Shown: one piece after another, positions 27,748-45,130 of the stretch
Layout: the number at the start of each line of letters is the position of its first letter
Numbering within the stretch: the first letter of the stretch is position 1
Source of the DNA: a virus
Virus record (IMG/VR): IMGVR_UViG_3300024430_000004
Coordinates: 1 to 46,559 of that record
Strand: one strand, 5' to 3'
Length of the DNA stretch: 46,559 nt
The notes under the pieces: generated by a model
Told to the model about the DNA's origin: nothing
Databases searched by the model: none
What the model saw: only the letters and a program-made list of their open reading frames with translations
Program-made: the position numbers and the translations under genes

Positions 27748-27989
27748 TGATCGACTCCGAGGCGATCCCCTTCATCATCGCTGGCTGGGTTGCCGTTGCT
27801 GCGCTCGTCGCCCCGCTCATCGGCCGGGCAATCCGGTACGGCGCCGGCACCGACGACGACACACCGGATGAGCCCGTCGGCGAACTCGTCGAGTTCCCGC
27901 GCAGGTTGCGGCTGGTGAAGGGCGGCCTTGACGAAGCTGGTCGTGCCGCTGATGGCGTGTGGCGGGACGGGTCGGGGAGCGCAGCATGA
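27744..27989 (+). CDS. Single-pass membrane protein
   Basis: Encodes 81 residues from GTG at 27744 (or ATG at 27747). A hydrophobic segment (IPFIIAGWVAVAALVAPLIG) is followed by an acidic stretch and a basic-amphipathic helix. It ends SAA. It couples to a gene that carries the first copy of the junction repeat. The function is unknown. Confidence 0.6.
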   Translation: MMIDSEAIPFIIAGWVAVAALVAPLIGRAIRYGAGTDDDTPDEPVGELVEFPRRLRLVKGGLDEAGRAADGVWRDGSGSAA

Positions 27990-28288
27990 CCCCGCAGGAT
28001 GCCCGCCAGAGCAGAAGCGCCGCTCAGGGCGTGACCGCACGGCAGGCCCGTCTCGTTGATTGGTTCAAGCACCCCGGAACGGCGCTGCCCGACCATCCCG
28101 CGATCGACTCGACGGCGGCGGCTTGGACCGCTCAGGAAGTCGTCGATCACACGGGCCTGTACGAGACTCGCGCTCAAGCGCTCAGTGACCTACGGAAGCT
28201 GCGTGAGCTGGGAACCGTCGCCGCGATCGGCTCCCGATGGCGCTACATCCGACCTCATGAGGACATTCGGGGAGGCCGTCGTGTCTGA
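27986..28288 (+). CDS. Small winged-helix-like protein with repeat-encoded N-terminus
   Basis: Encodes 100 residues. The first ten residues MTPQDARQSR come from a copy of the junction repeat: the 24 bases at 27991-28014 are identical to those at 41423-41446, upstream of an unrelated protein. The body (WTAQEVVDHTGLYETRAQA, LSDLRKLRELGTVAAIGSRW) looks like a winged helix, suggesting a DNA-binding regulator. It overlaps the next gene by eight bases. Confidence 0.7.
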   Translation: MTPQDARQSRSAAQGVTARQARLVDWFKHPGTALPDHPAIDSTAAAWTAQEVVDHTGLYETRAQALSDLRKLRELGTVAAIGSRWRYIRPHEDIRGGRRV

Positions 28289-28691
28289 CCAGCCCGCCCG
28301 CCGAAGCAGAAGCGACCAGATGCCCGTGATGTTCTTCACCACCGCCGAGAGGGAGGCGTACGAAGCTGAGCAGAACCGTCGCGCTGCCCTCAATGAACAG
28401 GCAGCCCCATTGCTGCGCGCGGTCTTTGGCTCTGTCCGTCGCTCCGACCCAGACTTCTCCATCGATGAGTTCTGGCCCGGTGGGGCTGACGAGCCGAATC
28501 TCGGGAACCTGCGTGCGCCGTGTTCTGATTGTGGCCGCCAGGTCTACGCCTGGACTTCCTCATCGCGGACGCCAATCGGCGGCGGCTGGCGCTGGGTCGG
28601 CTTGAACCATCAGGAGCCATACACCGACTACTTCGCGGCCTGCGGATGGTGCGGCGGTCCCGTTCATTTCACGATCCACGCACCCCAATGA
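28281..28691 (+). CDS. Hypothetical zinc-binding protein
   Basis: Encodes 136 residues from GTG, opening VSDQPARRSRS, a variant of the repeat-encoded N-terminus. The middle is helical (TAEREAYEAEQNRRAALNE) and the C-terminal part holds PCSDCGRQV and AACGWCGGPVHF, two CxxC pairs for a zinc ribbon. An ATG at 28320 is a possible alternative start. It is followed by the first micro-ORF. Confidence 0.65.
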   Translation: MSDQPARRSRSDQMPVMFFTTAEREAYEAEQNRRAALNEQAAPLLRAVFGSVRRSDPDFSIDEFWPGGADEPNLGNLRAPCSDCGRQVYAWTSSSRTPIGGGWRWVGLNHQEPYTDYFAACGWCGGPVHFTIHAPQ

Positions 28692-28735
28692 CGCCGCACC
28701 TTTGCGCCACCAGGAAGGAGGCCGGTCGTGCCTGA
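28688..28735 (+). CDS. Junction micro-ORF 1 (MTPHLCATRKEAGRA)
   Basis: A complete 15-codon frame in the gap between two genes, starting in an ATGA overlap and ending eight bases into the next coding sequence. It contains the LCA motif shared by the other micro-ORFs. AAGGAGG at 28715-28721, the ribosome binding site of the next gene (GTG 28728), lies inside it. The stem CCTT/AAGG (28699-28702 with 28715-28718) encloses TGCGCCACCAGG and would cover that site. Confidence 0.55.
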   Translation: MTPHLCATRKEAGRA

Positions 28736-28940
28736 GAACCAGGGCGCCCGCCGGAGCGGCGTCCTTGCTCGGGACTGCGTCCGTGAGCGCAACGGCGTAT
28801 GGCACGCCTGTCGCGGCCGGGGAAACGCCGACTGGCAACCAATCAAGTGCAGCAAGAACGAGGGGATCGTGCTGCCCGGTCCGCGCGTGGAGCGAGAGCC
28901 GACATGCGCAGACTGCCTCGCCGCGCTGGGGGCCGACTGA
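28728..28940 (+). CDS. Small Cys-rich protein with repeat-encoded N-terminus
   Basis: Encodes 70 residues from GTG with a perfect AAGGAGG ribosome binding site. The N-terminus (PENQGARRSGV) is encoded by a repeat also found at 33109. The body has NGVWHACRGRG, IKCSK and PTCADCLAAL, a typical zinc-binding actinophage early protein. Function unknown. The first 51 bases around its start match 33084-33134 at 46 positions. Confidence 0.7.
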   Translation: MPENQGARRSGVLARDCVRERNGVWHACRGRGNADWQPIKCSKNEGIVLPGPRVEREPTCADCLAALGAD

Positions 28941-28972
28941 TGCAGCTAAGCGCCACAAGGTGCGGCCGATGA
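28940..28972 (+). CDS. Junction micro-ORF 2 (MQLSATRCGR)
   Basis: A ten-codon frame from a TGATG overlap with the upstream gene to a TGA overlapping the next ATG (28969). It shares the first 21 bases with micro-ORF 9 at 41889 apart from two changes. AAGG inside it is the only ribosome-binding-like sequence for the next gene, so translation of the micro-ORF and the next gene is probably coupled. Confidence 0.5.
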   Translation: MQLSATRCGR

Positions 28973-29238: not shown

Positions 29239-29246
29239 GAGGCCCG

Positions 29247-30848: not shown

Positions 30849-31342
30849 CGGCGTTCGACGCCTCCACCTGGGCGAACACGCCCGTCAACGATGGCGAGAG
30901 CGGCCAGGACAACCCGCCGCCCGAGCCCGGCCTGTACGAGTGTGTGCTGGCGGACGCTCGCGCGTTCACGAGCAAGGCCGGCAAGGACATCGTGAAGCTG
31001 ACCTACAGCGTGGCGAGCGGGCCGCTGTCCGGCTATCAGTGGGACGACATCTACACGTTCGAGCCGCGCCGGATCAAGGCGACGAAGTCCACGATCGCGC
31101 ATCTCGGGGTCGACGTTGCGACGGTGACGAGCCTCGAGCAGCTCGGCGACATGCTCAGTGAGCGCGTCGGCGAGTGGTTCACGATCCGGGTGGTCCAGAA
31201 CGGCGAGTTCCGGTCGACCTACGTCAACGGCCCGGTTGGTGCGTCGCAGGCGCCGTTGTCGGATGTGCCGGCCCCGGTGTTGCCGCCGGTGGGCGCGGGG
31301 TCAGCTGCGGCGATCAAGGGCGACGACGACATCCCGTGGTGA
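30845..31342 (+). CDS. Phage SSB-like protein (DUF669-like) with acidic C-terminal tip
   Basis: Encodes 165 residues. The core (GLYECVLADARAFTSKAG, DIVKLTYSVASGPLSG, YQWDDIYTF) resembles phage DUF669-type proteins that bind single-stranded DNA. The C-terminus ends KGDDDIPW, nearly the DDDIPF tip by which SSB proteins recruit replication and repair partners. Position after the Sak4-like ATPase supports the role. Trp in place of Phe at the last residue is a conservative change. Confidence 0.75.
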   Translation: MTAFDASTWANTPVNDGESGQDNPPPEPGLYECVLADARAFTSKAGKDIVKLTYSVASGPLSGYQWDDIYTFEPRRIKATKSTIAHLGVDVATVTSLEQLGDMLSERVGEWFTIRVVQNGEFRSTYVNGPVGASQAPLSDVPAPVLPPVGAGSAAAIKGDDDIPW

Positions 31343-31710
31343 TGGCGACCCCGGAAGCCCGCCGGAGCACGCTGAACGCGAGCGAGTTCACCGCTGTGTT
31401 CAGTGACTACGACGAGCGCGAATCGCCATACGACGGCCGGGCGCTCAAGGTGTCGTTGACGAGCGACGTTTTATTTGTCTACGTCGGCACGCTGAAGGAG
31501 GAGCGCGGGTCGGACGTGTTTGCCTACGACGACGCACACGGCGTAGGAATTGACGCGGAGGCGCTCTACGAAGTTCTCGGCACGATGCTGCGCCGGTCGG
31601 ACCGCAACGCTAACGAGCGGCTGCGAGAGGGCACGCTGCCCGCCGACCACCCGTCGCTCGCCGCGGTTCCCGTGCCGACGTTGGTTCCTGGGACGAGGCG
31701 GCGGGCATGA
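31342..31710 (+). CDS. Hypothetical protein with repeat-encoded N-terminus
   Basis: Encodes 122 residues. The first residues ATPEARRSTL belong to the repeat family. The body is acidic and strand-rich (ALKVSLTSDVLFVYVGTL, FAYDDAHGVGIDAEALYE). It starts in a TGATG overlap with the SSB-like gene and is followed by a micro-ORF that overlaps its stop. Family not recognised. Confidence 0.6.
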   Translation: MATPEARRSTLNASEFTAVFSDYDERESPYDGRALKVSLTSDVLFVYVGTLKEERGSDVFAYDDAHGVGIDAEALYEVLGTMLRRSDRNANERLREGTLPADHPSLAAVPVPTLVPGTRRRA

Positions 31711-31742
31711 CCCTCCCCTGCACCAAGGGGTCGGTCCGGTGA
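31707..31742 (+). CDS. Junction micro-ORF 3 (MTLPCTKGSVR)
   Basis: An 11-codon frame linking two genes: it starts over the upstream stop and its TGA overlaps the GTG at 31739. It also encodes a nested hairpin: GACC (31709-31712) with GGTC (31733-31736) outside and CCCCT (31715-31719) with AGGGG (31726-31730) inside, loop GCACCA. AGGGG is the downstream Shine-Dalgarno-like sequence, so the hairpin should block it until a ribosome reads the micro-ORF. Confidence 0.5.
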   Translation: MTLPCTKGSVR

Positions 31743-32749: not shown

Positions 32750-33075
32750 CCCCGCAGGATCCCCGCCGAAGCAGCATCCGTTGCGACCTCCCGCCCGAGG
32801 GGTGGCGCTGTACCCGGATCGCCGGACATGACGGCCCGTGTGCCGCCGTGCCGAACCTTCTGCGGGGCAGCGGGAAGTGCCCTCTCTGCGAGCACGAGTG
32901 GCGTCGTCACGACCCCTCGGATGGGCGCTGTGATGCCCACGCGGGCCTTGGCGGTGGGCTCGGCCCTTGCCCATGTGGACGTGACCTCGCGTTCATGCAG
33001 CGGGAGATCGCTTTGCAGTCGTCCGCTGCGCTGTTGGAGCGGTTCGACGAGGTCGACCAGGGGGACGTCGCGTGA
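32746..33075 (+). CDS. Cys/His-rich hypothetical protein with repeat-encoded N-terminus
   Basis: Encodes 109 residues; MTPQDPRRSS is a repeat-encoded start. The body has EGWRCTRIAGHDGPC, KCPLCEHEW and GPCPCGRDLA, at least three potential zinc sites, then a helix. Its ATG overlaps the nuclease stop and its stop overlaps the GTG of a micro-ORF. Function unknown. Confidence 0.6.
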   Translation: MTPQDPRRSSIRCDLPPEGWRCTRIAGHDGPCAAVPNLLRGSGKCPLCEHEWRRHDPSDGRCDAHAGLGGGLGPCPCGRDLAFMQREIALQSSAALLERFDEVDQGDVA

Positions 33076-33116
33076 CCCTGCTCTGCGCCACCACGAAGGA
33101 GGCCGACCGTGCCTGA
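33072..33116 (+). CDS. Junction micro-ORF 4 (VTLLCATTKEADRA)
   Basis: A 14-codon GTG-started frame in GTGA overlap with the upstream stop, ending eight bases into the next coding sequence. It contains LLCA. The 16 bases at 33075-33090 are identical to 36852-36867 in micro-ORF 7, and the longer stretch 33084-33134 matches 28703-28753. AAGGAGG at 33096-33102 inside it is the ribosome binding site of GTG 33109. Confidence 0.55.
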   Translation: MTLLCATTKEADRA

Positions 33117-33477
33117 GAATCAGGGCGCTCGCCGATCCAGGGTTGAGCCGTGCGCTGGTTGCCCGACCTACGTCTGCCCGACGAGCGGCGAGCGAGAGTG
33201 CCCGATTCACGGCGGCTTCGACGTGTGCTGTGACCACCCGCAGTGTCCTGGTGCCCGCCAGACCGGGGATGATCGGAAGCGGGACACGGACGCCTTGCGA
33301 TGGTTCCTGCTCGGCTCGTCGTCGGGTTACGGCCTCGGCGGCGGCCTCGCGTCGTGGCCCGGCGGCATCGTTGAGTCCGGCGTCGGCATGGCGCTTGCGA
33401 TGGCGGCGCTCGTCGTGTGGTGGCGCTACTTGCGAAAGCGGTACGGCGGCGCGATGGAGGCGACGGATGCGTCCTAG
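33109..33477 (+). CDS. Zinc and membrane protein with repeat-encoded N-terminus
   Basis: Encodes 122 residues. After PENQGARRSRV (same module as at 28728) come ten Cys/His residues (EPCAGCPTYVCPTSG, CPIHGGFDVCCDHPQC), then two hydrophobic stretches (GYGLGGGLASWPGGIV, GVGMALAMAALVVWW). The unrelated body behind an identical N-terminus shows that the repeat is a separable module. The function is unknown. Confidence 0.65.
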   Translation: MPENQGARRSRVEPCAGCPTYVCPTSGERECPIHGGFDVCCDHPQCPGARQTGDDRKRDTDALRWFLLGSSSGYGLGGGLASWPGGIVESGVGMALAMAALVVWWRYLRKRYGGAMEATDAS

Positions 33478-33514
33478 CTCAACCCTCCAATGCGCCAATC
33501 GGAGGGTCCGGTGA
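33467..33514 (+). CDS. Junction micro-ORF 5 (MRPSSTLQCANRRVR)
   Basis: A 15-codon frame starting 11 bases before the upstream stop and ending over GTG 33511. It contains LQCAN. ACCCTCC (33482-33488) pairs perfectly with GGAGGGT (33501-33507) around a 12-base loop holding the GCGCCA core. GGAGG, the ribosome binding site of the next gene, is fully inside the stem. This is the clearest copy of the hairpin. Confidence 0.55.
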   Translation: MRPSSTLQCANRRVR

Positions 33515-33924
33515 CCACCTTCGCCGCCGCCCGGGACGCCGGCCATCTCTCCCCGGACAGCCAGGTCAACCCGCAGCACATCGCGGACGACCTCGACCGG
33601 TTCGCCCAGCGCCTCGACGAACTCGAGAAGGAGATCGAGCGGGCGACGATGATCCTCAACGACACGGAGGACGCCTGGCTCGAAGTTTTCGACGCGGTCG
33701 GCGAGAGCCTGCGCACCGAGTACCAGGAGCGCGGCCGAAAAACTGACCCTGCCGAGCACGTCATCGAGTCGGAGGCCCGCCGTCAGAACAGGCTGGTGTG
33801 GACGAATCATCGGCGGGCGAAGCGGGCTGTGGCTCTACTTGAGACGCAAATCCGTGCTGTCACGGCCGCTCTCAGCGCATGTCAGTCGCGAGCCAAGGCA
33901 ACCGCTGCGGAGTCGTGGCGATGA
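33511..33924 (+). CDS. Coiled-coil hypothetical protein
   Basis: Encodes 137 residues from GTG 33511 (an in-frame ATG at 33490 reads MRQSEGPV through the repeat). Mostly helical: HIADDLDRFAQRLDELEKE, then NRLVWTNHRRAKRAVALLE. The Shine-Dalgarno GGAGG five bases before the GTG supports this start. Family not recognised. Confidence 0.6.
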   Translation: MTTFAAARDAGHLSPDSQVNPQHIADDLDRFAQRLDELEKEIERATMILNDTEDAWLEVFDAVGESLRTEYQERGRKTDPAEHVIESEARRQNRLVWTNHRRAKRAVALLETQIRAVTAALSACQSRAKATAAESWR

Positions 33925-34280
33925 GCATGGATTCCCGCCAATGCTGGGTTGAGGAGATCGCGCATCATCTGTATGCGGGAGGCCCCTACGGCGAGTTCAT
34001 CTGCTTCCTCGACAACGGCGCCAGGGCGATCACCGATGCCCACACGATGGACGTGTACCGCGGGCTCGTTGAGGACGTCGTTGAGCAGGCACACGTCGTG
34101 GATATCTCCGTGGAGCGCGACATGCAGGAGGCGTGGAACCGGCGCCTAGTGGTCGCGCTGCGCGAGGCCGTGTCCACGATGAAGCGCCAGATGCACAGCG
34201 ACTACGTGCTGGATAGGCCCTTCGACGAGGACATGGCGGACGCGATCCGCAAGGCCGAGGACGTGCTCAGCAATGGGTGA
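33921..34280 (+). CDS. Hypothetical protein with repeat-encoded N-terminus
   Basis: Encodes 119 residues; MSMDSRQCWVEE is repeat-encoded, and the RNA over it forms a hairpin AGCAT/ATGCT (33924-33928 with 33941-33945) around a 12-base loop with CCGCCA. The rest is a helical soluble protein (HTMDVYRGLVEDVVEQAH). Its stop overlaps micro-ORF 6. Function unknown. Confidence 0.6.
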   Translation: MSMDSRQCWVEEIAHHLYAGGPYGEFICFLDNGARAITDAHTMDVYRGLVEDVVEQAHVVDISVERDMQEAWNRRLVVALREAVSTMKRQMHSDYVLDRPFDEDMADAIRKAEDVLSNG

Positions 34281-34320
34281 ACCGCTTCTGCAATGCGCCA
34301 ATCCGAGGGTTACCCGATGA
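34273..34320 (+). CDS. Junction micro-ORF 6 (MGEPLLQCANPRVTR)
   Basis: A 15-codon frame from inside the upstream gene's end to a TGA overlapping ATG 34317. It shares EPLLQCA with micro-ORF 10: bases 34279-34301 match 43013-43035 at 22 of 23 positions, 8.7 kb apart. GAGGG before the next ATG lies inside it. Confidence 0.55.
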   Translation: MGEPLLQCANPRVTR

Positions 34321-34649
34321 CCCGTGGCGGACAGGCCGGCCGCGCCCGCGAACGCCAGGTCGCGAACCGTCTCCGCTCCGATGACTGGGTTTGCGTGAAG
34401 GGCACGACGTTCGGCGTGTGCGATCTCGTCGCCCTGCGAGCCGGGAGCACCCCGCGACTGATCGAGGTCAAATCGACTGCTGGAGGTCCGTATGAGCGGT
34501 TCGGTCCGGTGGAGCGTGCGAGCCTGATGGCGGAGGCGCGGCGTGCGGGCGCCGAAGCCTGGCTCGCGTGGTATCCGCCGCGCGGGCAGCTCCGTTGGAT
34601 TCCGAGTTGGGAATGGCCGGGCGTGGTCGAGTTGGGACGGGCGGCGTGA
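34317..34649 (+). CDS. Holliday-junction-resolvase-like / VRR-type nuclease
   Basis: Encodes 110 residues from ATG 34317 (an in-frame ATG at 34293 reads MRQSEGYP through the repeat). The pattern ARERQVANRLR (Glu12), TTFGVCDLVALRAG (Asp36) and RLIEVKST (Glu50, Lys52) is the PD-(D/E)XK core of Hjc-like resolvases. It would cut branched DNA during recombination or before packaging. It ends RAA. Confidence 0.75.
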   Translation: MTRGGQAGRARERQVANRLRSDDWVCVKGTTFGVCDLVALRAGSTPRLIEVKSTAGGPYERFGPVERASLMAEARRAGAEAWLAWYPPRGQLRWIPSWEWPGVVELGRAA

Positions 34650-34897
34650 CTCCCCCGGACCCCCGACAAACCGGGGTTATGCCAAACATGCGGGCTGACG
34701 GTTCGGGCCGCAACAAGCCCGCCATAATCGTCGCCGCTCCGAACGAAGCGGGCTACCCGAAGGTGCAGGGCCGATGCCCCGCCTGTGGCTCTACGACGCT
34801 GTTCCTCGGGAGCGGCGGCTACGTGACGTGCAGCCTGCTCGGCTGCTCTGACCCGTGCTCGGCGGACAAGTTCCTGCACGGCGAGGGCGCGTCGTGA
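34646..34897 (+). CDS. Zinc-ribbon protein with repeat-encoded N-terminus
   Basis: Encodes 83 residues from GTG in a GTGA overlap. VTPPDPRQTGV is repeat-encoded and covered by a hairpin CCCCGG/CCGGGG (34653-34658 with 34671-34676). An ATG at 34679 right after the hairpin is an alternative start. The body has GRCPACGSTTLFLGSG and TCSLLGCSDPC, a zinc ribbon. Function unknown. Confidence 0.65.
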   Translation: MTPPDPRQTGVMPNMRADGSGRNKPAIIVAAPNEAGYPKVQGRCPACGSTTLFLGSGGYVTCSLLGCSDPCSADKFLHGEGAS

Positions 34898-35106
34898 GAA
34901 CCCTGCTGGGCGCCAACAGCGGAAGCGCTCTCGCCGCCCTCGCCCGCCGGACCGCACTCCTCCAGTACGCCGACCAGCAGGCCGCCAAGGGCCACGAGGC
35001 GCTCGACCGCGGGCTTAACGACCGGGCCGCCGAGCATCTCAACGAGGCCCGGATGGCGCGGCTGGCGGCGCTCGCCATCGAAGCGCAACAGGAGAACGCG
35101 GCATGA
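34894..35106 (+). CDS. Small helical hypothetical protein
   Basis: Encodes 70 residues from GTG in a GTGA overlap. It is Ala/Arg-rich and fully helical (LAALARRTALLQYADQQAA, then RAAEHLNEARMARLA). It ends ENAA and overlaps the next gene. Family not recognised. Confidence 0.6.
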   Translation: MRTLLGANSGSALAALARRTALLQYADQQAAKGHEALDRGLNDRAAEHLNEARMARLAALAIEAQQENAA

Positions 35107-35438: not shown

Positions 35439-36613
35439 ACGATCTGCCGGACCGCCGCTGCCGGACCTGCGGCAAACTCAAGGCGCCCGACGCGTACAAC
35501 GGGCCGACCGCCCGACGCTGCGACGCCTGCCGGGACGAGCATGTCGCCCGACGCAGCGGGACACGCCGATGCGCCGCCTGCTCCCGCGCCCGACCCGTCA
35601 GCGCATACCGGGGGCCGCTCGCCCGCAAGTGCGACGAGTGCATCGCCGCCGTCGCGACCCGCGAATGCCGGCGCTGCCACGAGCACAAGCCGGTCAGCGG
35701 GTACGTGCGCCGCGGCACCGTCTGCTCGGACTGCCGCAAGCTGCCGCACCCAAGCGACGCCCGGATCCGGCCGCGCGCATGCCTGCGGTGCTTTGAGGTC
35801 AAGGCGCCCGACGCGTTCGACTTCGGCCCGAGCGGCAACCGCCGCTACGGCGTCTGCCGGGCATGCCGGGAAGCCGAACGCCAGGCGAAGCATCAGCGCC
35901 GCGCGACGTTTGTGCGCGACGGCGTGACGGTCCGGCGGTGCTGCGTGTGCCGTGAGACGTTCCCGCTGGAGTCCGGGTTCTACATCCGCAAGCGCTGGGA
36001 TGACGGCCGCGTCGACTACGACCACCGGTGCAAGCCGTGCCACCAGCGTCACACGGAGGCGCGCCGCAAACGGCAGATGCAGGACCCGCAGCAGGCCGCC
36101 TTGATCCGCCGCCGCCGTGCGGCCGCTACCCGCCGGTGGATCCGCATGAACCCGGAGGCGTCACGGGCCGCCCAGAAACGCTACTACGACAAGGTGATGG
36201 CGGACCCGCGCCGCCGCCAGGAGATACGGGAGAACGAGCGGATCCGGCATCGTCTCGCCCGTGAGCGGGCCGGGACGCCACTCACGGCGCTGCGGTCCGC
36301 GTCGACCGCGATGATGGGCCACGACGAGCTGCCGCGGCTGCCTGTCGGGCCGCTCGCCGAGGTGATCCGCCGGCTGGTCCGGCGCGAGGAGCTCGCGGGC
36401 AACCCGGAGCCGTTTGAGTGCGTGTGCCGGTTGGCGGATGTGGAGCCGAGGACGGCGTTTGCGTGGTTGACGGGTGAACGGCGTGTCATGCAGTTCGATG
36501 TCGCTGAGCGGGTGCTGGTGGCGTTGGGGTTGTTGTGGTTCGACGTGTGGGGCGAGGATGATCCGGTTGCGCGTCGGGCGTTTGAGGGTGAGTTTGAGGC
36601 GGTGGCGGCATGA
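35435..36613 (+). CDS. Tandem zinc-knuckle array protein with C-terminal helix-turn-helix-like region
   Basis: Encodes 392 residues. Residues 9 to about 210 hold five consecutive modules with paired CxxC knuckles, from CRTCGKLKAPDAY to CKPCHQRHTE, each similar to the N-terminal zinc module of phage endonuclease VII-like/HNH proteins. A basic region follows (about 215-290, RRRRAAATRRWIR), then a C-terminal helical domain (CRLADVEPRTAFAWLTGER, FDVAERVLVALGLLWF) resembling a helix-turn-helix. No HNH or DExK catalytic site is visible, so it is more likely a nucleic-acid-binding regulator than a nuclease. The array is unusual. Confidence 0.65.
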   Translation: MNDLPDRRCRTCGKLKAPDAYNGPTARRCDACRDEHVARRSGTRRCAACSRARPVSAYRGPLARKCDECIAAVATRECRRCHEHKPVSGYVRRGTVCSDCRKLPHPSDARIRPRACLRCFEVKAPDAFDFGPSGNRRYGVCRACREAERQAKHQRRATFVRDGVTVRRCCVCRETFPLESGFYIRKRWDDGRVDYDHRCKPCHQRHTEARRKRQMQDPQQAALIRRRRAAATRRWIRMNPEASRAAQKRYYDKVMADPRRRQEIRENERIRHRLARERAGTPLTALRSASTAMMGHDELPRLPVGPLAEVIRRLVRREELAGNPEPFECVCRLADVEPRTAFAWLTGERRVMQFDVAERVLVALGLLWFDVWGEDDPVARRAFEGEFEAVAA

Positions 36614-36849
36614 CCCCGGATTCCCGCCAAACGGAGGTTCGCGTAGGGCCCGAGTCGGCGCGGGCGATGGCGGACTACATCACTGCCTTCATCGGGCTTG
36701 AGCGGCAGATCATCGCTCATCGAGAAGACAAGGATCCGGCTGAACTGCAGCGCCTTGTCGAGGCTTGGGCCGGTATGGCGGAGCACATCAGTCGGGGGCG
36801 GCGGCGCTTGAACAGCGAGATTCTGACCGCCACGGTGACCGACCGATGA
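36610..36849 (+). CDS. Small helical protein with repeat-encoded N-terminus
   Basis: Encodes 79 residues; MTPDSRQTEVRV is repeat-encoded and the RNA can form ACC-CCG/CGG-A-GGT with one bulge. The body is helical (SARAMADYITAFIGLERQI, LQRLVEAWAGMAEHI). The stop overlaps the ATG of micro-ORF 7. Family not recognised. Confidence 0.6.
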   Translation: MTPDSRQTEVRVGPESARAMADYITAFIGLERQIIAHREDKDPAELQRLVEAWAGMAEHISRGRRRLNSEILTATVTDR

Positions 36850-36887
36850 CAACCCTGCTCTGCGCCAGAACGAGGGTGGCGGCATGA
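36846..36887 (+). CDS. Junction micro-ORF 7 (MTTLLCARTRVAA)
   Basis: A 13-codon frame that starts over the upstream stop and whose TGA overlaps ATG 36884. It carries LLCA. ACCCT (36852-36856) pairs with AGGGT (36873-36877), covering the GAGGG ribosome-binding-like sequence before 36884. Its first half is identical over 16 bases to micro-ORF 4. Confidence 0.55.
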   Translation: MTTLLCARTRVAA

Positions 36888-38026: not shown

Positions 38027-38594
38027 CCGCCGCCTCCGCTACGAGATTCTGCGACGCGACGGCCACACCTGCCGCTACTGCGGCGGCAAGGCTCCCGACG
38101 TCGCTCTTACCGTCGACCACGTCGTCCCGGTCAGTCTCGGCGGCACAGACGAGCCAGTCAACCTTGTCGCGGCCTGCGCTGACTGCAACGGCGGCAAGAG
38201 CAGCGTCCCGGCCGATGCCCCACTCGTTGAGCAGGTTGCCGAGGATGCGCTGCGGTGGGGTCGCGCCATGAAGTTAGCCGCCGAGTACCAGGACGACGTG
38301 CGTTGCACGTCTGACGACGTCTGCAACGCCTTCTATGACGGGTGGACGTCTTGGACATATGGTTCAGACGGTCACACCGTTCCCTTGCCGAGTGATTGGC
38401 GCCAGTCGGTCGAGCACTTCGTGAAGGTTGGCCTCGAGCCTGGGGTCATCTACCGAGCGGTCGCCCGAGCAATGGAGAAGCGAGGACTCCGCGGTGACTT
38501 CGCCGAGTTCACGTACATGTGCGGCATCCTCTGGCGAACCCTCGACGAGCGCCAGAGGATCGCCCGGGAAGCCCTCGACGCGGGGATGGCATGA
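38016..38594 (+). CDS. HNH endonuclease
   Basis: Encodes 192 residues. HTCRYCGGKAP (Cys19, Cys22), VDHVVPVSLGG (His35), VNLVAACADCNGGKSS (Asn49, Cys54, Cys57, Asn58) is an intact HNH core with a zinc site. The remaining 130 residues are helical (WRQSVEHFVKVGLEPGVIY) and may bind DNA. It lies next to the replication initiator. It may be a replication-associated or homing nuclease. No intron is seen. Confidence 0.85.
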   Translation: MAVSRRLRYEILRRDGHTCRYCGGKAPDVALTVDHVVPVSLGGTDEPVNLVAACADCNGGKSSVPADAPLVEQVAEDALRWGRAMKLAAEYQDDVRCTSDDVCNAFYDGWTSWTYGSDGHTVPLPSDWRQSVEHFVKVGLEPGVIYRAVARAMEKRGLRGDFAEFTYMCGILWRTLDERQRIAREALDAGMA

Positions 38595-39517
38595 GCCGCC
38601 GTGAAGATGTCGAAACGGCAATCTGGTCCGACCCGGACTTTGAAGAACTATCGCTCGAGGCGTCGGCGCTCTACCTCTGGTCGTTCACGAACCCGCGCTG
38701 CGGCATGGCCGGCATCTACAAGGTCGGGCGCCGGGCGATGACCGAAAGCAAGGTCTCGCCCGACCGGCTCGAAGCCGTCCTGGCCGAGCTCGCCGCCGCC
38801 GGCTTCGCGTACTACGAGGACGGCGTCCTGTGGGTGCGGTCGCGGGTGAAGCATCTGCGGACCCGCACGGAGCAGATCGCGAAGTCGATCGCGAAGGACA
38901 TCGATCGCCTCCCCGCTGAGCATCCGCTGCGTCGCCGGTTCCTCATCACGTACGCCGACCAGCCGTGGCTTCGTGACTACCTGCGTCCGCTGGTGACCGT
39001 CCCGGGTACGTCGGTGACGCTCACCGAAAATGGCTCCGCAGAGCCAAACGGCGGGAACGTCGGAGACGTTCCGCAAGGGTTCCTGGGTAAGGGTAAGGGC
39101 AAGGGTAAGGGAGAAGGCAGTTCTCTTTCAGACGCGCGCGCGGTCACGGAACGCCTGTTCGCCTACTGGCAGCAGCAGTGCAACCACTCCGACGCGAAGT
39201 TCACCGCCGACCGCAAGAGCAAGGTCGAGGCTCGACTTCGTGAGGGCTACACCGAGGAGCAGGTCCGCCAGGCGATCGATGGTGCAGCGCGAGCGCCGTT
39301 CATCGACGAGAAGGGCAAGCGCCACGACGATCTCCACTTGATCTGTCGGAATGGCTCCAAACTCGAGGACTTCATGGGACGTGTCGGCTTGCCGTCGTCT
39401 TCGAACGGGGCGTCGAAGGCGTGGGGTCCCGAGCAGATTGCCGCCGAGGTGGCGGCGAGTGAGCGGCGTAACGCTGAGCGGGCGCGGCGCGAGGCCGAGA
39501 TGGAGGCGACCCGATGA
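38591..39517 (+). CDS. Phage replication initiator (replisome organiser-like)
   Basis: Encodes 308 residues. The N-terminal part (residues 1-150; AIWSDPDFEELSLEASALY, then KVSPDRLEAVLAELAAAGF) is a winged-helix domain like those of phage replisome organisers. A GKGKGKGKGEG linker follows, then a C-terminal domain (FAYWQQQCNHSDAKFTADR, REGYTEEQVRQAID) similar to the phage domain phg_TIGR02220 thought to load helicase. The linker DNA (39085-39111) is a tandem GGGTAA repeat, a possible origin. The helicase gene lies at 43045. Confidence 0.75.
   Translation: MSRREDVETAIWSDPDFEELSLEASALYLWSFTNPRCGMAGIYKVGRRAMTESKVSPDRLEAVLAELAAAGFAYYEDGVLWVRSRVKHLRTRTEQIAKSIAKDIDRLPAEHPLRRRFLITYADQPWLRDYLRPLVTVPGTSVTLTENGSAEPNGGNVGDVPQGFLGKGKGKGKGEGSSLSDARAVTERLFAYWQQQCNHSDAKFTADRKSKVEARLREGYTEEQVRQAIDGAARAPFIDEKGKRHDDLHLICRNGSKLEDFMGRVGLPSSSNGASKAWGPEQIAAEVAASERRNAERARREAEMEATR
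39085..39111 (+). repeat. GGGTAA tandem repeat inside replication gene (possible origin or G-quadruplex)
   Basis: GGGTAA at 39085, 39091 and 39103, with GGGCAA at 39097, plus a fifth GGG at 39109, give five G-triplets each separated by three bases. This is a perfect G-quadruplex motif on the coding strand. It encodes the Gly-Lys linker of the initiator. In lambda and relatives, repeated binding sites inside the initiator gene at the linker form the origin. Confidence 0.5.
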
Positions 39518-39768
39518 CACCGCCGGAACCCCGCCAACCGTGCGTAGTCGATGCGACCGCCGCAGGGGGGATCGACATCGGCCAGACGTGGCGAGAGCGA
39601 GTCGCGGGCGACCGCTTCAAGGTGCTTGCCACCTACCGCGACCACCCCACAAACCCCAGCTTCCTCGTGGAGTACGAGCCGCCTGCACCCGGCTGGCATT
39701 CGCGTGGCAAGCGCACGGTCACGCTTGGCTTCTTCCGCGCCTACTGCGAGAAGGTGGCCGATGTGTAG
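39514..39768 (+). CDS. Hypothetical protein with repeat-encoded N-terminus
   Basis: Encodes 84 residues. MTPPEPRQPCVV is a repeat-encoded start. The rest is a small beta protein (GQTWRERVAGDRFKVLATY, NPSFLVEYEPP). The pattern resembles small phage DUF-type beta-barrel proteins; the function is unknown. It overlaps the replication gene stop and is followed by micro-ORF 8. Confidence 0.6.
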   Translation: MTPPEPRQPCVVDATAAGGIDIGQTWRERVAGDRFKVLATYRDHPTNPSFLVEYEPPAPGWHSRGKRTVTLGFFRAYCEKVADV

Positions 39769-39802
39769 TCCGCATCTAAGCGCCAACGGGTGCATCCGGT
39801 GA
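39761..39802 (+). CDS. Junction micro-ORF 8 (MCSPHLSANGCIR)
   Basis: A 13-codon frame from inside the upstream gene's end to a TGA overlapping GTG 39799. It has HLSA in place of LCA (Cys to Ser by one base). GCATC (39772-39776) pairs with GGTGC (39789-39793), with one G-U pair, around a 12-base loop holding GCGCCA. Confidence 0.45.
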   Translation: MCSPHLSANGCIR

Positions 39803-40035
39803 ACAGCCGCGAGCAAGCCCTCGGCAACCTCGGCCGCATCCTTGCCGCCAGCATGACCCGCCGGCACGGCGGCACATGGGCGCTACTCCCCGCCGCTAAC
39901 CCACGGACGGGCGACGAACCCGCCACCGCCCTTCCGGGGCAACTCGACGGGCTCCCACACCGCGACAACCCCGACACGCCCACCCAGCGGCCCGCCCCCG
40001 GCCGCGACGAACACGGCCTGGACCATGCTGCGTAA
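39799..40035 (+). CDS. Small frame convergent with the integrase (uncertain)
   Basis: A 78-codon GTG-started frame coupled to micro-ORF 8. The first 30 residues (NSREQALGNLGRILAASMT) look protein-like; the rest runs antisense to the last 150 bases of the integrase and is Pro/Asp-rich. The gene may be real but extended by loss of its original stop, for example through insertion of the integrase module. Confidence 0.35.
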   Translation: MNSREQALGNLGRILAASMTRRHGGTWALLPAANPRTGDEPATALPGQLDGLPHRDNPDTPTQRPAPGRDEHGLDHAA

Positions 40036-41358
40036 CGCCTCCTGTCGCTCTGCCAGCAGCATCGCGTCCCACTCCTCCTGCAGCGACGCGACGTCCGCCG
40101 CCGGCGACACCCGCAACCGTGCCCGGGCCGACGCGACACGTTCCTGCGCATCCCGGGCGGATTCTCTCGCGTCCCGGACCAGCCGTCCCCAACGGTCCGC
40201 GCCGAGCTCGCGTCGCACATCCAGCGACGCCAGTTCATCCAGCAGCGCCTCCGCGTCCGCCAACCGCCGCTCGAGCGCCGCAACGTCCTCTCCGTCGTCG
40301 TCGGCACGGCCGACCTGCACCGCCCCCGCCAACTCCATGAACCGGGAGACCACGATCCGCTCCACCTCGATCGCTTCCCGTCCGGTCAGCATCGCTGGCG
40401 CCCCGCACTCGTGCGTCGCCGATTTTCCGGCGACCGTCCGGCAACGCCACCGCGGCGGCTTGCCGTGGCTGCTCACCATCCGCTTGAGCACGTACCGGCA
40501 CCCGGCGCACCGCAACAGGCCCCGCAGCAGGCTCTCGTCGTGGATGCGTGGCGTCGACGGTGCCGACCGGACCGCCGGCCGGGCGCGTTGCGCCGCCATC
40601 CATGACGCCTCGTCGAGGAGCGCCGGGTGAGCGCCGCGATGCACGTTGTCGCCGTGGCTGGCCTCGCCGACGTACACCCGCCGGCTGATCATCCGGCGCA
40701 GCAGGTGCGCGTTGAGTCGCCGCCCGTTCCACTGGCGAACCCCGGCCGTGTCGAGTTCCCGGCTGATCTGTTCCCATCCGGCGCCGTCCGCGCGCCGCTG
40801 GAAGGCGTGCAGCACCCATGGCGCTCGCTCCGGGTCCGCAACCAGGCCCCCGGTGACGGGGTCGCGGCCGTAGCCGAATGGCGCCGGCCCCATGTGGCGG
40901 CCCTTGTCGATGATCGCCCGGCGATGCACGATCTTCGACTGCTCCCGGAATCGTGCGAGTTCGCGTTCGGAGGCGGCCAGGATCACGGTCGTGGTCATGC
41001 GTCCCTCCGGCGTGGTGGAGTCGATGGTGCCGTCCGTCGCCGCGATCCACTTGCCTTCGGCTTGCAGCTCGTCCATGAGGCTGAGGCCTTGGATCGTGTT
41101 CCTGGATGCCCGGTCGGAACGTGCGACGATGATGCCGTCCGCTTCCCCGGCCCGCAGGCGTTGGCGTGCTTCGGTGAGTCCGGGCCGGGTGAGCGTGCCG
41201 CCGGACCGGTTGAGGTCGTGGATCTCTCCGGCGATCTCGATGCCGCGTGTTGCGGCCCAGGTGCGGATGGCGTCGCGTTGGAGGTCGGGGCTTTCGAAGC
41301 GGCCGCGGGCGGCTCGGTCGCCGACGACGCTGACGCGGATGTAGGCAAGGGCACGCAT
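39883..41358 (-). CDS. int: Large serine recombinase (integrase)
   Basis: Encodes 491 residues leftward. The N-terminal resolvase domain starts RALAYIRVSVVGDR, with nucleophile Ser10, and has SDRASRN and LAASERELARFREQSK. The recombinase domain (about 165-270) contains PAPFGYGRDP and AHLLRRMISRRVYVG; a zinc ribbon follows (LLRCAGCRYVL, Cys pairs), then a coiled coil (about 385-470) used for synapsis control. It would integrate and excise the phage. It is the only leftward gene in the right half, and a candidate attP lies at its 5' end. The start at 41358 aligns with the conserved domain. Confidence 0.93.
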   Translation of the reverse strand: MRALAYIRVSVVGDRAARGRFESPDLQRDAIRTWAATRGIEIAGEIHDLNRSGGTLTRPGLTEARQRLRAGEADGIIVARSDRASRNTIQGLSLMDELQAEGKWIAATDGTIDSTTPEGRMTTTVILAASERELARFREQSKIVHRRAIIDKGRHMGPAPFGYGRDPVTGGLVADPERAPWVLHAFQRRADGAGWEQISRELDTAGVRQWNGRRLNAHLLRRMISRRVYVGEASHGDNVHRGAHPALLDEASWMAAQRARPAVRSAPSTPRIHDESLLRGLLRCAGCRYVLKRMVSSHGKPPRWRCRTVAGKSATHECGAPAMLTGREAIEVERIVVSRFMELAGAVQVGRADDDGEDVAALERRLADAEALLDELASLDVRRELGADRWGRLVRDARESARDAQERVASARARLRVSPAADVASLQEEWDAMLLAERQEALRSMVQAVFVAAGGGPLGGRVGVVAVWEPVELPRKGGGGFVARPWVSGGE

Positions 41359-41361
41359 GGG

Positions 41362-41404
41362 GGTCCTTGCGGATTGTACGTGAACACGACGGACCGTAAG
41401 GACC
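41362..41404. other. Candidate attP: inverted repeat next to the integrase start
   Basis: GGTCCTTGCGG (41362-41372) and CCGTAAGGACC (41394-41404) are inverted copies with one mismatch, separated by 21 bases. The 43-base span, symmetric and directly upstream of the integrase ATG, fits attP sites of large serine integrases (about 50 bases, imperfect dyad, near int). It could instead be an operator of the integrase gene. The crossover dinucleotide cannot be told from sequence alone. Confidence 0.5.
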
Positions 41405-41417
41405 ACAGGGAGCCCGC

Positions 41418-41885
41418 ATGAGCCCGCAGGATGCCCGCCAGAGCAGGGTTGTCCCAGAGCCCGTCGATGGCCTCCTCATCTTCGACGTGGGCTTCCCCGA
41501 TCAGCGGTGGCGCGTCACCGGAGTAGCTGTCGATGACCGCATAGAAGCGCGGCGCATCGTGCCTGACGACGGCATCCTCCACAGTTGGGACCGTCCGGGC
41601 TGGGATTACGCATGGGAGCGGGGCTGGCTCGCGGTTGCGGAGCCTGAGAACCAGCCCGCCCGCCGAACCAGGGGCCAGCGCAGCGACTACGTGAGTGTGT
41701 GGGGCAACACCTGCACGGTCGGCATGAACGGCTCGGTCTACTACTGCGTTCGACCCGATGGATTGCCGGAGTACGGCCAAGACGACATGACGGTGACCCT
41801 CCGCGAAGGCCCCGGCGGCGACGACCCCGCAGAAGTCCGGTTCTGGGCGCACGACGCCTTCCTCGACGCCTACGGGGGCGTCTGA
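41418..41885 (+). CDS. Hypothetical protein with repeat-encoded N-terminus and an internal repeat copy
   Basis: Encodes 155 residues from ATG after GGGAG. MSPQDARQSRVVPEP is repeat-encoded, sharing 24 identical bases with 27991-28014. Around residues 75-87 a second in-frame copy reads EPENQPARRTRGQ. The two flanking parts (LIFDVGFPDQRWRVTGVAV; NTCTVGMNGSVYYCVRPDG) look like separate units, so the gene may be a fusion made at a repeat. Function unknown. Confidence 0.6.
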   Translation: MSPQDARQSRVVPEPVDGLLIFDVGFPDQRWRVTGVAVDDRIEARRIVPDDGILHSWDRPGWDYAWERGWLAVAEPENQPARRTRGQRSDYVSVWGNTCTVGMNGSVYYCVRPDGLPEYGQDDMTVTLREGPGGDDPAEVRFWAHDAFLDAYGGV

Positions 41886-41888
41886 GCA

Positions 41889-41927
41889 ATGCAGCTATGC
41901 GCCACAGGGAGCGTCCGGTGCGGGTAG
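41889..41927 (+). CDS. Junction micro-ORF 9 (MQLCATGSVRCG)
   Basis: A 12-codon frame that begins three bases after the upstream stop and ends with TAG inside the next gene (GTG 41918). It carries LCA. The first 21 bases differ from micro-ORF 2 at two positions. GGGAG inside it can serve as ribosome binding site of the next gene. Confidence 0.5.
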   Translation: MQLCATGSVRCG

Positions 41928-42628
41928 ACAGGCACACCGCCCACGCGATCGCTGTGGGCAGGATCAAGCAGTTCCGGCTACCCGTGGGTCCGAACGGGCC
42001 GACCAGGACAACGCCGCGCAAGGGCCGGCGCCTCGACATCAAGACGCTCTCCGGGTCCCTGTCCTGCCAGGTCGACATCCTCGACGTCAGGCGGGCACGC
42101 CACGCCGACACGCTGGACCCGGACAGTCTCCGCGAGCTCACCGGCGACCCGAACCCGGTGACATGGGCGAGGGCGTGGCTGCTCGAGCATGATGCGGCGT
42201 GGCTGGCTCGCCGGTGCCCGCCGGGGCTTCGCGGCTACAGCAGCCTGGATGACGCGACGGTGGCGCTCGACGGGCTCTCGGACGGGAGCGTCACCGCCCG
42301 GTTCGAGAGCCGGTGGGCGGACCGCAGCGTGTGGGCCGTCCGCTTCGAAGTGGTGCAGGACGCCCCGGTGTGGCTTTCACAAAATGGGGCTCAGCGGTAC
42401 GTGAAGTTGCCGGACGGCCGGTGGGCATCAGACGAGGAGGACACAGAGATGGAAGCGCACGGCTACACGATGCGTCCGTCGCGGGCGTTGCTGGACGCCG
42501 GGGAGGTACTCGACCCGGGGTCGCTCGCTCCCCGCTGGGCGGACGGGGCGGCTGAGCGCAGGCATGAGGCGCGTTCGCCGCGTGAGCAGGCCCGCGAGTT
42601 GACCCGACAACTGAGGAGGGCTTCGTGA
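41918..42628 (+). CDS. Hypothetical protein, possibly ASCH/PUA-like
   Basis: Encodes 236 residues from GTG. The first half (HAIAVGRIKQFRLPVGPNG, GRRLDIKTLSGSLSCQV, DILDVRRARHADTLDPDSL) has the order of strands of an ASCH/PUA-like RNA-binding domain; the second half is of mixed type, ending in a basic helix (EARSPREQARELTRQLRR). The ASCH proposal is weak. The stop overlaps the next start. Confidence 0.5.
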   Translation: MRVDRHTAHAIAVGRIKQFRLPVGPNGPTRTTPRKGRRLDIKTLSGSLSCQVDILDVRRARHADTLDPDSLRELTGDPNPVTWARAWLLEHDAAWLARRCPPGLRGYSSLDDATVALDGLSDGSVTARFESRWADRSVWAVRFEVVQDAPVWLSQNGAQRYVKLPDGRWASDEEDTEMEAHGYTMRPSRALLDAGEVLDPGSLAPRWADGAAERRHEARSPREQARELTRQLRRAS

Positions 42629-43014
42629 TGCCGGAAACCCGCCGATCCGGGGTTGTCCCCGAGGGTGCCTATCGGTGTTCGGAGTGCGGCCACGGTGACC
42701 ATCTCTACGCCTGCGCGGAGGCCATTATCAGCGGTCGCCTACTCCCCGATGGAGAGGTCACGCAGGACGACGTCACGCAGACCGACTTGTGTGTGTCGAG
42801 CATCGACTGCGAGGAGCATCCGGCGCCCTCAAGCCGCTTGGAACGGTGGATCGGCGGCCGATGGACCTACTGGCGCCGCTGCGACTGGCGGGAGGGCGCG
42901 GGGCGGTGCGAGGACGGCGCCGCCATGTACTACGAGAGGCAGGTCGGGAGCTGCCCTGCTTGCGGGGGTCGTGGCGGGTTCGATGTGCCGATTGAGGTCG
43001 TCGCTCATGCCTGA
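42625..43014 (+). CDS. Zinc-binding hypothetical protein with repeat-encoded N-terminus
   Basis: Encodes 129 residues from GTG (or ATG 42628) after GGAGGG. MPETRRSGVVPEG is repeat-encoded and covered by hairpin CCGGA/TCCGG (42631-42635 with 42646-42650). The body has YRCSECGHGDHLYAC and SCPACGGRGGF, two zinc sites. Function unknown. Confidence 0.65.
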   Translation: MMPETRRSGVVPEGAYRCSECGHGDHLYACAEAIISGRLLPDGEVTQDDVTQTDLCVSSIDCEEHPAPSSRLERWIGGRWTYWRRCDWREGAGRCEDGAAMYYERQVGSCPACGGRGGFDVPIEVVAHA

Positions 43015-43048
43015 GCCGCTTCTGCAATGCGCCAAGGGCTGCGGATGA
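43007..43048 (+). CDS. Junction micro-ORF 10 (MPEPLLQCAKGCG)
   Basis: A 13-codon frame from inside the upstream gene's end to a TGA overlapping the helicase ATG (43045). It shares EPLLQCA with micro-ORF 6. CCGC (43016-43019) can pair with GCGG (43041-43044) directly before the ATG. Reading of the helicase gene is probably coupled to it. Confidence 0.55.
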   Translation: MPEPLLQCAKGCG

Positions 43049-44334
43049 CCTCGCCAGTCTGGGACAAAAGCGCCGAGCAGGCCGTCCTCGCGAATATCCT
43101 CCTCACCCCCGCCATCCTGCGGCCGCTCAGCACCGAGATCGGGCTACGGACAGAGCACTTCTACCTGCCGTCGCACCAAGACATCTACCGGGCGATGCTC
43201 GACCTCCACGACCAAGGAGACCCAAACGACCGCATCGACCAGACCGCGCTCACCCGCCGCATCGACCAGACCGCCGCCCAAGCCCTCGCCGTGCTCATCG
43301 GCGACGGATACTCAGACACAGCCTGGCGTGTCCACGCCGAAGCCGTCATCCGCTGCAGCCGCTACGAACGGACCCGCGCGGCCGCCGAACAACTCGCCCA
43401 CGGCGCGCACACGATGGATGACGACCTCATCGCCGAAGCGGAACGGCTGCTCACCGAACCCGCCGGCCATGACGGCACCACCCTGGACCCCGAGACCCGC
43501 AAAACCCGGGCGCTCGAACGTATGGACGAGGAGCAGCCGCCCGTCATGCCGTTGCCGTGGGGTCGCGTCAACGACTTGATCGTCGGTGGCATGTGGCCCG
43601 GTCGCTACATGCTGCTCGGAGGACACGGAAAGCACGGGAAGTCCTGTGCCGTCGATGGTGCTCTCGATCGGTTCGCGGCGCAGGGCAAGAAGGTCGCGCT
43701 GTACCTCACCGAAACGACTGAGCAGGAACGCACCGAGCGGTCGATCGCGCGCAACGGCCCACTGACCTACACGCAGGTGCAGAAGTACTTTCAAGCGCCG
43801 AAAGCGCCCCAGAACCGGCGATACGACAAAGACATCGCGGACACGATTCGTAGCCTGCCCAGCGTCGCCTGCGTGGAAGCTCACGACTGGACGGTGCAGG
43901 AGATCACCCGCCACATCGCGCACGCCGGCTGGGACGCGTGCGCCGTCGACATTCTGCACGACATCCCGCTTCCGCGCGGGCAGGGCATGTCCACCGTCGA
44001 CGCCTACCAGGAGATCGGCCGGCAACTTTTGCAGTGCGCGAAGCGGACCCGGACGGCCATGATCGTCGCTTCTCATCTCAACGACAGCCGGGTGGTCGAC
44101 GCGCCGCCGGTTCCGGTCAACAGGGACTTCCGGGGCTGCGGGATGCTCTACCGCCAGGCGGATGTGGCGATGATGGTCTGGCAGGAGGAGAACGATGACG
44201 GCCCGACTGGTGACGGGGTGATCAAGGTGACTGCGTGCCGGCAGGGTCAGACGGGGTTGATGCAGGCTGCGTTCAACGGGTCAAAGCAGCGGTGGAGGGA
44301 GCTGGGTTCGGTGCAGCGGTTGGCGGCGGCATGA
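43045..44334 (+). CDS. DnaB-family replicative helicase
   Basis: Encodes 429 residues. The N-terminal DnaB domain (about 5-100, SAEQAVLANILLTPAILRP, FYLPSHQDIYRAMLDLHDQ) precedes a RecA-type core with Walker A GGHGKHGKS (Lys199, Ser200) and Walker B CAVDILHD (Asp302), then IVASHLNDS and a late TACRQGQTG finger. The start at 43045 overlaps micro-ORF 10; an in-frame ATG at 43027 reads through the repeat. It would unwind DNA at the fork with the initiator at 38591. It ends LAAA. Confidence 0.85.
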   Translation: MTSPVWDKSAEQAVLANILLTPAILRPLSTEIGLRTEHFYLPSHQDIYRAMLDLHDQGDPNDRIDQTALTRRIDQTAAQALAVLIGDGYSDTAWRVHAEAVIRCSRYERTRAAAEQLAHGAHTMDDDLIAEAERLLTEPAGHDGTTLDPETRKTRALERMDEEQPPVMPLPWGRVNDLIVGGMWPGRYMLLGGHGKHGKSCAVDGALDRFAAQGKKVALYLTETTEQERTERSIARNGPLTYTQVQKYFQAPKAPQNRRYDKDIADTIRSLPSVACVEAHDWTVQEITRHIAHAGWDACAVDILHDIPLPRGQGMSTVDAYQEIGRQLLQCAKRTRTAMIVASHLNDSRVVDAPPVPVNRDFRGCGMLYRQADVAMMVWQEENDDGPTGDGVIKVTACRQGQTGLMQAAFNGSKQRWRELGSVQRLAAA

Positions 44335-44768
44335 GCGACATGGAGGACTCGATGGCAACAAACCAATCCCGTCGAAGCTGGGTTGCCGAGAATGGAGCGA
44401 TGACGCGCGAACAGCTACGTGTGGTGCTCTCCGAGTGGTTCTGCGGGTGCGGCTCGCCCGAGGCTGCGTGCGGCGCGCTGTTGCGCCTCCTGAGCTTCCA
44501 CCCGATGTACGAGCATTGGCGCAACGCGCAGGCGTGGGTCGGTAACGAAGGGCTGCTGTATCTGCTGCTCTACCAGTTGGATCGTCTTGAACTGACCGAA
44601 CACGGCGGTTCGGTCGGCGGGGCGTGGCTGACGCCGAAGGGCGAGGCCGTCCGGGATGCGCTAGCTCGCGAGCAGGCGGACGGGTTCGAGACGCTGAACG
44701 GTGAGTACTGCGTCCACGGCTACGACATCAGCGACGGGTCGCACGACTGCATGAAGGCGGACGAATGA
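44331..44768 (+). CDS. Hypothetical protein with repeat-encoded segment
   Basis: Encodes 145 residues from ATG 44331. Residues 8-19 (MATNQSRRSWVA) are repeat-encoded and the RNA pairs GGCAAC with GTTGCC across it; ATG 44352 is an alternative start. The body is helical (REQLRVVLSEWFCGCGSP, EGLLYLLLYQLDRLELTEH), with a possible winged-helix character. It ends with a Cys/His pair. Function unknown. Confidence 0.6.
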   Translation: MSDMEDSMATNQSRRSWVAENGAMTREQLRVVLSEWFCGCGSPEAACGALLRLLSFHPMYEHWRNAQAWVGNEGLLYLLLYQLDRLELTEHGGSVGGAWLTPKGEAVRDALAREQADGFETLNGEYCVHGYDISDGSHDCMKADE

Positions 44769-45091
44769 GCCATTGGGGAAGCCTTGATGCGGAGTTCCAC
44801 GGCAAGGCGGTAAGCCGTTGGATGATCGAGGAGGGTCTGCCCACGGGCAGCGAATCCGGGCCAACGATCTATGAGCCAACGCCTGACGCCGGCCGGTGGT
44901 GGGTTGAGGGCAGATTGCGCGACGTGCAGGACTTCCGCGACAGCCCGGCCGTCCTCGCGTGGTTCGTCAGGGTCTGCGATTGGGCGGACCGAGCTGAGCT
45001 GAAGTGGCGCCTTGACGTCGGTCTGTCCTACTGGTTCACCTACACCGCTGACGATGGCCTCAGGCGCCAGCGCGGGGTGCTCGATGGGTGA
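44765..45091 (+). CDS. Hypothetical protein
   Basis: Encodes 108 residues rich in Trp (GRWWVEGRLRDVQDFRDSP, VLAWFVRVCDWADRAELKW, YWFTYTADDG). The family is not recognised. It is the last gene before the 174-base gap with the degenerate repeat copy. Confidence 0.6.
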   Translation: MSHWGSLDAEFHGKAVSRWMIEEGLPTGSESGPTIYEPTPDAGRWWVEGRLRDVQDFRDSPAVLAWFVRVCDWADRAELKWRLDVGLSYWFTYTADDGLRRQRGVLDG

Positions 45092-45130
45092 CGCAACACC
45101 GCTGAGTTGCGCCAGAACCGGGGTGTGTCC
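45084..45130 (+). repeat. Read-through copy of the junction micro-ORF
   Basis: The frame starts at ATG 45084 as usual (MGDATPLSCARTGVCPAP) and shows the LSCA motif and the CGCC...GGGGTG core, but no stop follows at the expected place and no gene start overlaps it. ACACC and GGTGT can still pair. It looks like a decayed or read-through copy at the end of the gene run. The rest of the gap to 45265 shows no gene or clear promoter. Confidence 0.45.

Follow-up and report, generated by a model that had tools for sequence, protein, structure and literature searches.

The early region of IMG/VR virus record IMGVR_UViG_3300024430_000004 raises the question of how phages can gather and exchange tiny orphan genes while keeping tightly overlapping operons intact. 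The window analysed here is the whole of this 46.6 kb stretch (positions 1 to 46,559; GC 69%), which derives from a tailed phage encoding a terminase, portal, tape measure protein, Sak4-like annealing protein, exonuclease, DnaB-like helicase, and serine integrase. Megablast of the window against 50,697 phage records returned no match. Because the portal is 37.5% identical to that of Thermobifida phage P318 and at best 50% identical (amino acids) to other IMG/VR contigs, the host is probably an actinobacterium. From 28 to 45 kb the genes form a densely packed operon with 4-nucleotide (nt) stop-start overlaps, and within it two types of short repeat, A and B, bracket a series of small genes. We tentatively interpret these repeats as conserved linkers that can be translated and that mark the boundaries of small accessory-gene cassettes.

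Type B (14 copies) lies within the N-terminus of a gene and encodes M-T-P-x-x-A/P-R-R/Q-S/T-x-V, although one copy is internal. Type A (12 copies) is a micro-open reading frame (micro-ORF) of 10–15 codons in the gap ahead of the next gene, starting at -11 to +4 nt from the upstream stop and overlapping the next start codon by 4, 8, or 10 nt. The consensus of A is CTNCTNTGCGCCA-N4-GAGGGT and that of B is GGANNCCCGCCRAAGC-NGGGTTG; the two have common core bases, read in different frames, in a box 11–26 nt downstream of the start codon. Thirteen genes start with B (g2, g3, g4, g11, g13, g14, g16, g18, g22, g28, g30, g32, and g34), and a gap of 28–36 nt follows ten of them, as opposed to none of the 21 other early junctions (Fisher p = 2e-6). 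Each of those ten gaps is an A micro-ORF. Genome order alternates B...A, B...A, with no adjacent pair of A among the 14 B and 12 A copies (p = 4.7e-5). In genome order, the elements are:

27986..28022 (+), B1, N-terminus of g2, MTPQDARQSRS; core at 28004
28269..28288 (+), apparent truncated A, right half GGGGAGGCCGTCGTGTCTGA, at the end of g2 (g2/g3 junction); aligned with two intact A-B junctions
28281..28317 (+), B2, N-terminus of g3, MSDQPARRSRS; core at 28299
28688..28735 (+), A1, micro-ORF MTPHLCATRKEAGRA, g3-g4 gap; core at 28705; strong Shine-Dalgarno sequence AAGGAGG
28728..28767 (+), B3, N-terminus of g4, MPENQGARRSGV; core at 28749
28940..28972 (+), A2, micro-ORF MQLSATRCGR, after g4; core at 28951
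31342..31378 (+), B4, N-terminus of g11, MATPEARRSTL; core at 31360
31707..31742 (+), A3, micro-ORF MTLPCTKGSVR, between g11 and the exonuclease gene g12; core CACC at 31721; weaker score
32746..32782 (+), B5, N-terminus of g13, MTPQDPRRSSI; core at 32764
33072..33116 (+), A4, micro-ORF VTLLCATTKEADRA, g13-g14 gap; core at 33086
33109..33148 (+), B6, N-terminus of g14, MPENQGARRSRV; core at 33130
33467..33514 (+), A5, micro-ORF MRPSSTLQCANRRVR, after g14; core at 33493
33921..33954 (+), B7, N-terminus of g16, MSMDSRQCWV; core at 33936
34273..34320 (+), A6, micro-ORF MGEPLLQCANPRVTR, between g16 and the Hjc-like resolvase gene g17; core at 34296
34646..34682 (+), B8, N-terminus of g18, MTPPDPRQTGV, within an N-terminal extension of ~30 residues; core CGAC at 34664
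34894..34926 (+), A7, divergent, fused in frame to the start of g19 (MRTLLGANSGS...); core at 34911; weak score of 8.7
36610..36643 (+), B9, N-terminus of g22, MTPDSRQTEV; core at 36625
36846..36887 (+), A8, micro-ORF MTTLLCARTRVAA, after g22; core at 36863
39514..39550 (+), B10, N-terminus of g28, MTPPEPRQPCV; core at 39532
39761..39802 (+), A9, micro-ORF MCSPHLSANGCIR, after g28; core at 39781
41418..41454 (+), B11, N-terminus of g30, MSPQDARQSRV; core at 41436
41642..41679 (+), B12, internal, in frame within g30 (EPENQPARRTR); core at 41661
41889..41927 (+), A10, micro-ORF MQLCATGSVRCG, after g30; core at 41900
42628..42658 (+), B13, N-terminus of g32, MPETRRSGV; core at 42640
43007..43048 (+), A11, micro-ORF MPEPLLQCAKGCG, between g32 and the DnaB-like helicase gene g33; core at 43030
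44352..44388 (+), B14, near the N-terminus of g34, MATNQSRRSWV; core at 44370
45084..45129 (+), A12, frame MGDATPLSCARTGV..., not closed as a micro-ORF, after g35; core at 45110

The bracketed genes are unrelated to one another in sequence, and only the first 10–16 residues are common to the B genes in blastp comparisons. Similarity ends sharply at the linkers: the A-B junctions of g3/g4 and g13/g14 are 89% identical over 54 nt (33081–33134 versus the A1 region), and identity drops to background on both sides, where the flanks are unrelated. For nearly all B genes, searches of phage and plasmid collections, PHROGs, and Pfam gave no relatives. The clear exception is g18, a DUF6085-like gene. 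In Streptomyces phage ZL12 the homolog starts at the equivalent of about residue 31, directly after an in-frame stop, and a DUF6085 gene on a Streptomyces albidoflavus plasmid likewise starts at the domain, indicating that g18 is a known small gene to which the tag has been added; a third homolog is part of a longer protein. Three B genes depart from the spacing pattern, namely g2, which ends in the apparent right half of an A, g18, whose downstream A7 is fused in frame to g19, and g34. The internal B12 gives g30 the look of an in-frame fusion of two units.

The repeats are real and unusual. When each copy is excluded from its own position-weight matrix, 9 of the 12 A and 12 of the 14 B copies outscore all other positions on both strands, for a set of elements that was picked by eye and includes some near-duplicates. 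All copies lie on one strand and are confined to the early region; the late region holds one A-like and one B-like match above 10 bits. Of background stop trinucleotides, 6.5% have a micro-ORF of such size and placement, compared to 10 of 10 here. An earlier note on this DNA, made from the sequence alone, had listed ten micro-ORFs with their peptides, each ending across the next start codon, as a junction repeat family of the early region, all of which we find exactly as described. It had also taken CGCC-N6/7-GGGT as the mark of the family. This core is indeed enriched (10 matches with N7 versus 5.6 expected, a count reached by 4 of 100 shuffles; 12 with N6 versus 5.4 expected, reached by none of 100), but only mildly, and its many matches elsewhere in the window make it a weak descriptor. 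The single class of micro-ORF proposed there corresponds to our type A; the 14 B copies, inside coding sequence and alternating with A, form a second class. Because the B tags and the B-gene-A brackets around orphan genes were missed, that note saw half of the pattern. Strongly degenerate copies may additionally be carried by g37 (45515–45600, MTPREPGN...) and g39 (45924–45965, ...PAETWVE).

In the proposed cassette, B would provide the start codon and first 10–12 codons of an orphan gene, and A would fill the 28–36 nt after it with a micro-ORF of 10–15 codons. Ribosomes that terminate at the end of the cassette gene could then re-initiate at the overlapping start of the micro-ORF, translate through the linker, and restart once more on the following gene; A may also provide a Shine-Dalgarno-like GRGGG for that gene. 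Under such coupling the micro-ORF would be kept open so that the stop-start chain continues, and the micropeptide itself would need no function. The distance from start to core in A takes six values (11, 14, 17, 20, 23, and 26 nt), and all 12 copies fall at 2 mod 3; the chance of the frame being kept this way is about 0.004, with only five length changes counted as independent. Together with micro-ORF starts that overlap or abut the upstream stop, as ordinary starts in the operon do, this frame conservation supports translation across the linker. The A core also shares its frame with the following gene, but this results from the 4-nt stop-start overlaps and adds no separate evidence.

Homologous recombination at the short common sequences may add, remove, and rearrange cassettes, possibly aided by the Sak4-like annealing protein and exonuclease of the phage itself. 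Should presence and absence of B-gene-A units be borne out in relatives, the linkers would mark, at the molecular level, the insertion of single genes with translational coupling preserved, and accessory genes would be recognisable by their linkers alone. A stronger version, in which a phage-borne system uses dedicated or recruited recombination activity to capture genes between two specific translatable ends, with the common N-terminal tag and trailing micro-ORF wiring each gene into the coupled operon, is one we consider doubtful.

Several observations weigh against cassettes that move as proposed. The B gene g34 is followed by g35 and only then by the last A-like copy. The linkers are short and diverged, many copies being merely 70–85% alike, which would make them poor substrates for homologous recombination. 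Free shuffling of ends would not predict the weak correlation between the B and A ends of one cassette (Mantel r = 0.25, p = 0.04). Finally, no relative carrying the family, with either an occupied or an empty site, was found in searches that may leave out near relatives, so this absence is weak evidence, and mobility is inferred from the pattern in one genome. Scans of IMG/VR with the portal, helicase, Sak4, and exonuclease proteins and with four DNA patterns recovered only distant portal relatives or chance matches (for example in contig L058), and the portal had two distant matches among GTDB genomes. A comparison of the larger portal-related contigs, a weak method, showed no comparable common N-terminal tags. 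Two IMG/VR contigs from different samples (L012 and L018) have the same portal match statistics and apparently represent the same phage. Another possible boundary repeat is CATCCGCTCCTGCAACA, of which several copies are dispersed over 7590–8540 of L058, a phage contig of proteobacterial type.

A serious rival, possible but less probable than boundary linkers, is that A and B are one RNA (or DNA) box, CGCCR-N6/7-GGGT, 11–26 nt after the start, through which a host or phage factor tunes translation of early genes. Such a start-proximal regulatory signal would parallel what has been proposed for the start-associated sequences (SAS) of cluster K phages. It would account for the placement of the box past the start codon in both classes, for core bases that are common to A and B despite their different reading frames, and for copies that are all on one strand and almost lacking from late genes; moreover, the GGGT in A doubles as a Shine-Dalgarno sequence. 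However, it leaves unexplained why A follows B genes and not other genes, and the homology of A and B is itself only putative. Nor was a hairpin in RNA or single-stranded DNA supported, as arms swapped between copies do equally well (p = 0.06–0.17 for A, with a weak trend only, p = 0.06, in the narrowest span; p = 0.22–0.60 for B). This includes copies with attractive perfect stems, such as ACCCTCC...GGAGGGT at ~33482–33507, and Rfam covariance models gave no match at the elements. Also rejected were pairing between the B and A of one cassette, which is no better than in permuted pairs, and a target-site duplication, for which B/A similarity within a cassette gives p = 0.07–0.24 for stretches including the right flank. 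Selection on the peptide, as suggested in the earlier note, would instead make B a common N-terminal targeting or degradation signal and A a conserved micropeptide that acts as a partner or leader peptide. We regard this as improbable. All 12 A copies retain the frame, and two of them extend into longer frames (g19 and the one at 45084), but coupling also accounts for frame conservation, which alone is no proof that the peptide functions. The leucine codon varies at its third base and the conserved serine of B is encoded by both AGC and TCC; the leucine argument, however, draws on a single one of eight codons, variability at third positions does not significantly exceed that at first and second positions (A p = 0.20, B p = 0.39), the most conserved part has many amino-acid changes (Cys/Ser/Gly, Ala/Thr), and B reads the same core bases in another frame.

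Still less probable are DNA sites for a phage repressor, origin-binding protein, or recombination protein that lie near gene starts by coincidence. The early-region copies, dispersed in a single orientation, resemble the stoperators of cluster A phages in distribution. Stoperators, however, are well conserved 13-mers, whereas the present elements vary loosely in sequence and are linked to the codon frame and to gene ends, and the region has no promoter-like site in a scan covering the sigma-70 consensus only and no excess of terminators (8 terminator-like sites versus 6.4 expected, none at an element). Chance similarity in a genome of 69% GC, with which the mild enrichment of the literal core would be compatible, is already refuted by the leave-one-out ranking; the alternation, the gap pattern, and the long near-identical pairs likewise speak against it.

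In contrast to the B genes, several genes outside the cassettes have core replication or recombination functions, namely those for the Sak4-like protein, exonuclease, a replication initiator, the helicase, and the Hjc-like resolvase. Other features of the window are:

13595–13697, short endolysin/peptidase-like stretch in the tape measure protein (phrog_894, residues 967–1000)
37919–38026, short ORF MSQSSAIEWTEATSGGRALDGRTWDEMPEVAHHGC, which we take to resemble both ends of a phage Gp37-type (DUF5131) protein with its middle deleted
38016–38594, HNH endonuclease gene (PF01844), with ~70–75% DNA identity over ~230–260 nt to Gordonia and Mycobacterium phage HNH genes; this is the strongest nucleotide match within the regions searched, and recent transfer is likely
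39799–41406 (-), serine integrase gene within the early operon, overlapping the 3' part of g29, which it may truncate
41360–41417, upstream flank of the serine integrase gene, which may hold attP and a promoter

A limited search of open-licence papers found no published description of the B-gene-A arrangement. As a general idea, short conserved boundary sequences between phage modules have been proposed as joints usable by homologous recombination (as summarized in PMC3029335), and A and B could serve as such short common joints. In contrast to the boundaries outlined there (PMC3029335), A and B are the paired, codon-framed ends of single genes and recur a dozen times per genome. The gene cassettes of integrons, which carry attC sites and have been reported from phages as well (PMC9892861), resemble the units described here in that a repeated site follows small, mostly uncharacterized genes, in some cases in tandem. 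By contrast, the A site is ~33–48 nt long, has no supported palindrome, and is accompanied by an extra B tag in coding sequence. attC sites are longer than this. No significant structure indicates an attC-like folded imperfect palindrome in A, and among the proteins scanned, a subset of the ORFs, there was no tyrosine integron integrase; the sole recombinase found is serine-type (phrog_95/phrog_125).

The PeSLs (early promoter and stem-loop elements) of T4-like phages are reportedly the subject of work by Arbiol in 2010 and Comeau in 2014. They are summarized, at second hand, as mobile regulatory cassettes with an early promoter and a stem-loop at gene boundaries (via PMC4503421). Like A and B, they are short boundary repeats in plastic regions and have been proposed to mediate gene shuffling (PMC4503421). 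Unlike the PeSLs so summarized, the present linkers are translatable and have no promoter, terminator, or supported stem-loop; the sigma-70 scan gave 0 promoter-like sites and no terminator lay at an element where an early promoter followed by a stem-loop would be expected.

The SAS of cluster K phages are 13-bp sequences, GGGATAGGAGCCC with at most two mismatches, 3–7 nt upstream of the start (PMC3203893), and extended SAS (ESAS) add 17-bp imperfect inverted repeats beside the start sequence (PMC3203893; PMC12699233). As in the SAS/ESAS system, a dozen or more short single-orientation repeats with a Shine-Dalgarno-like part occur at the starts of some non-structural genes (PMC3203893; PMC12699233). 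The A and B consensus differ from GGGATAGGAGCCC in both sequence and position, and arm-swap and stem tests for ESAS-like inverted repeats were not significant. Whereas SAS are nearly invariant and bracket no gene, the box here is downstream of the start, diverged, and codon-encoding, and is part of a B...A bracket. The difference in sequence from SAS drawn in the earlier note holds. In appearance, the nearest known system is the cluster K SAS, while in proposed role it is the PeSLs of T4-like phages.

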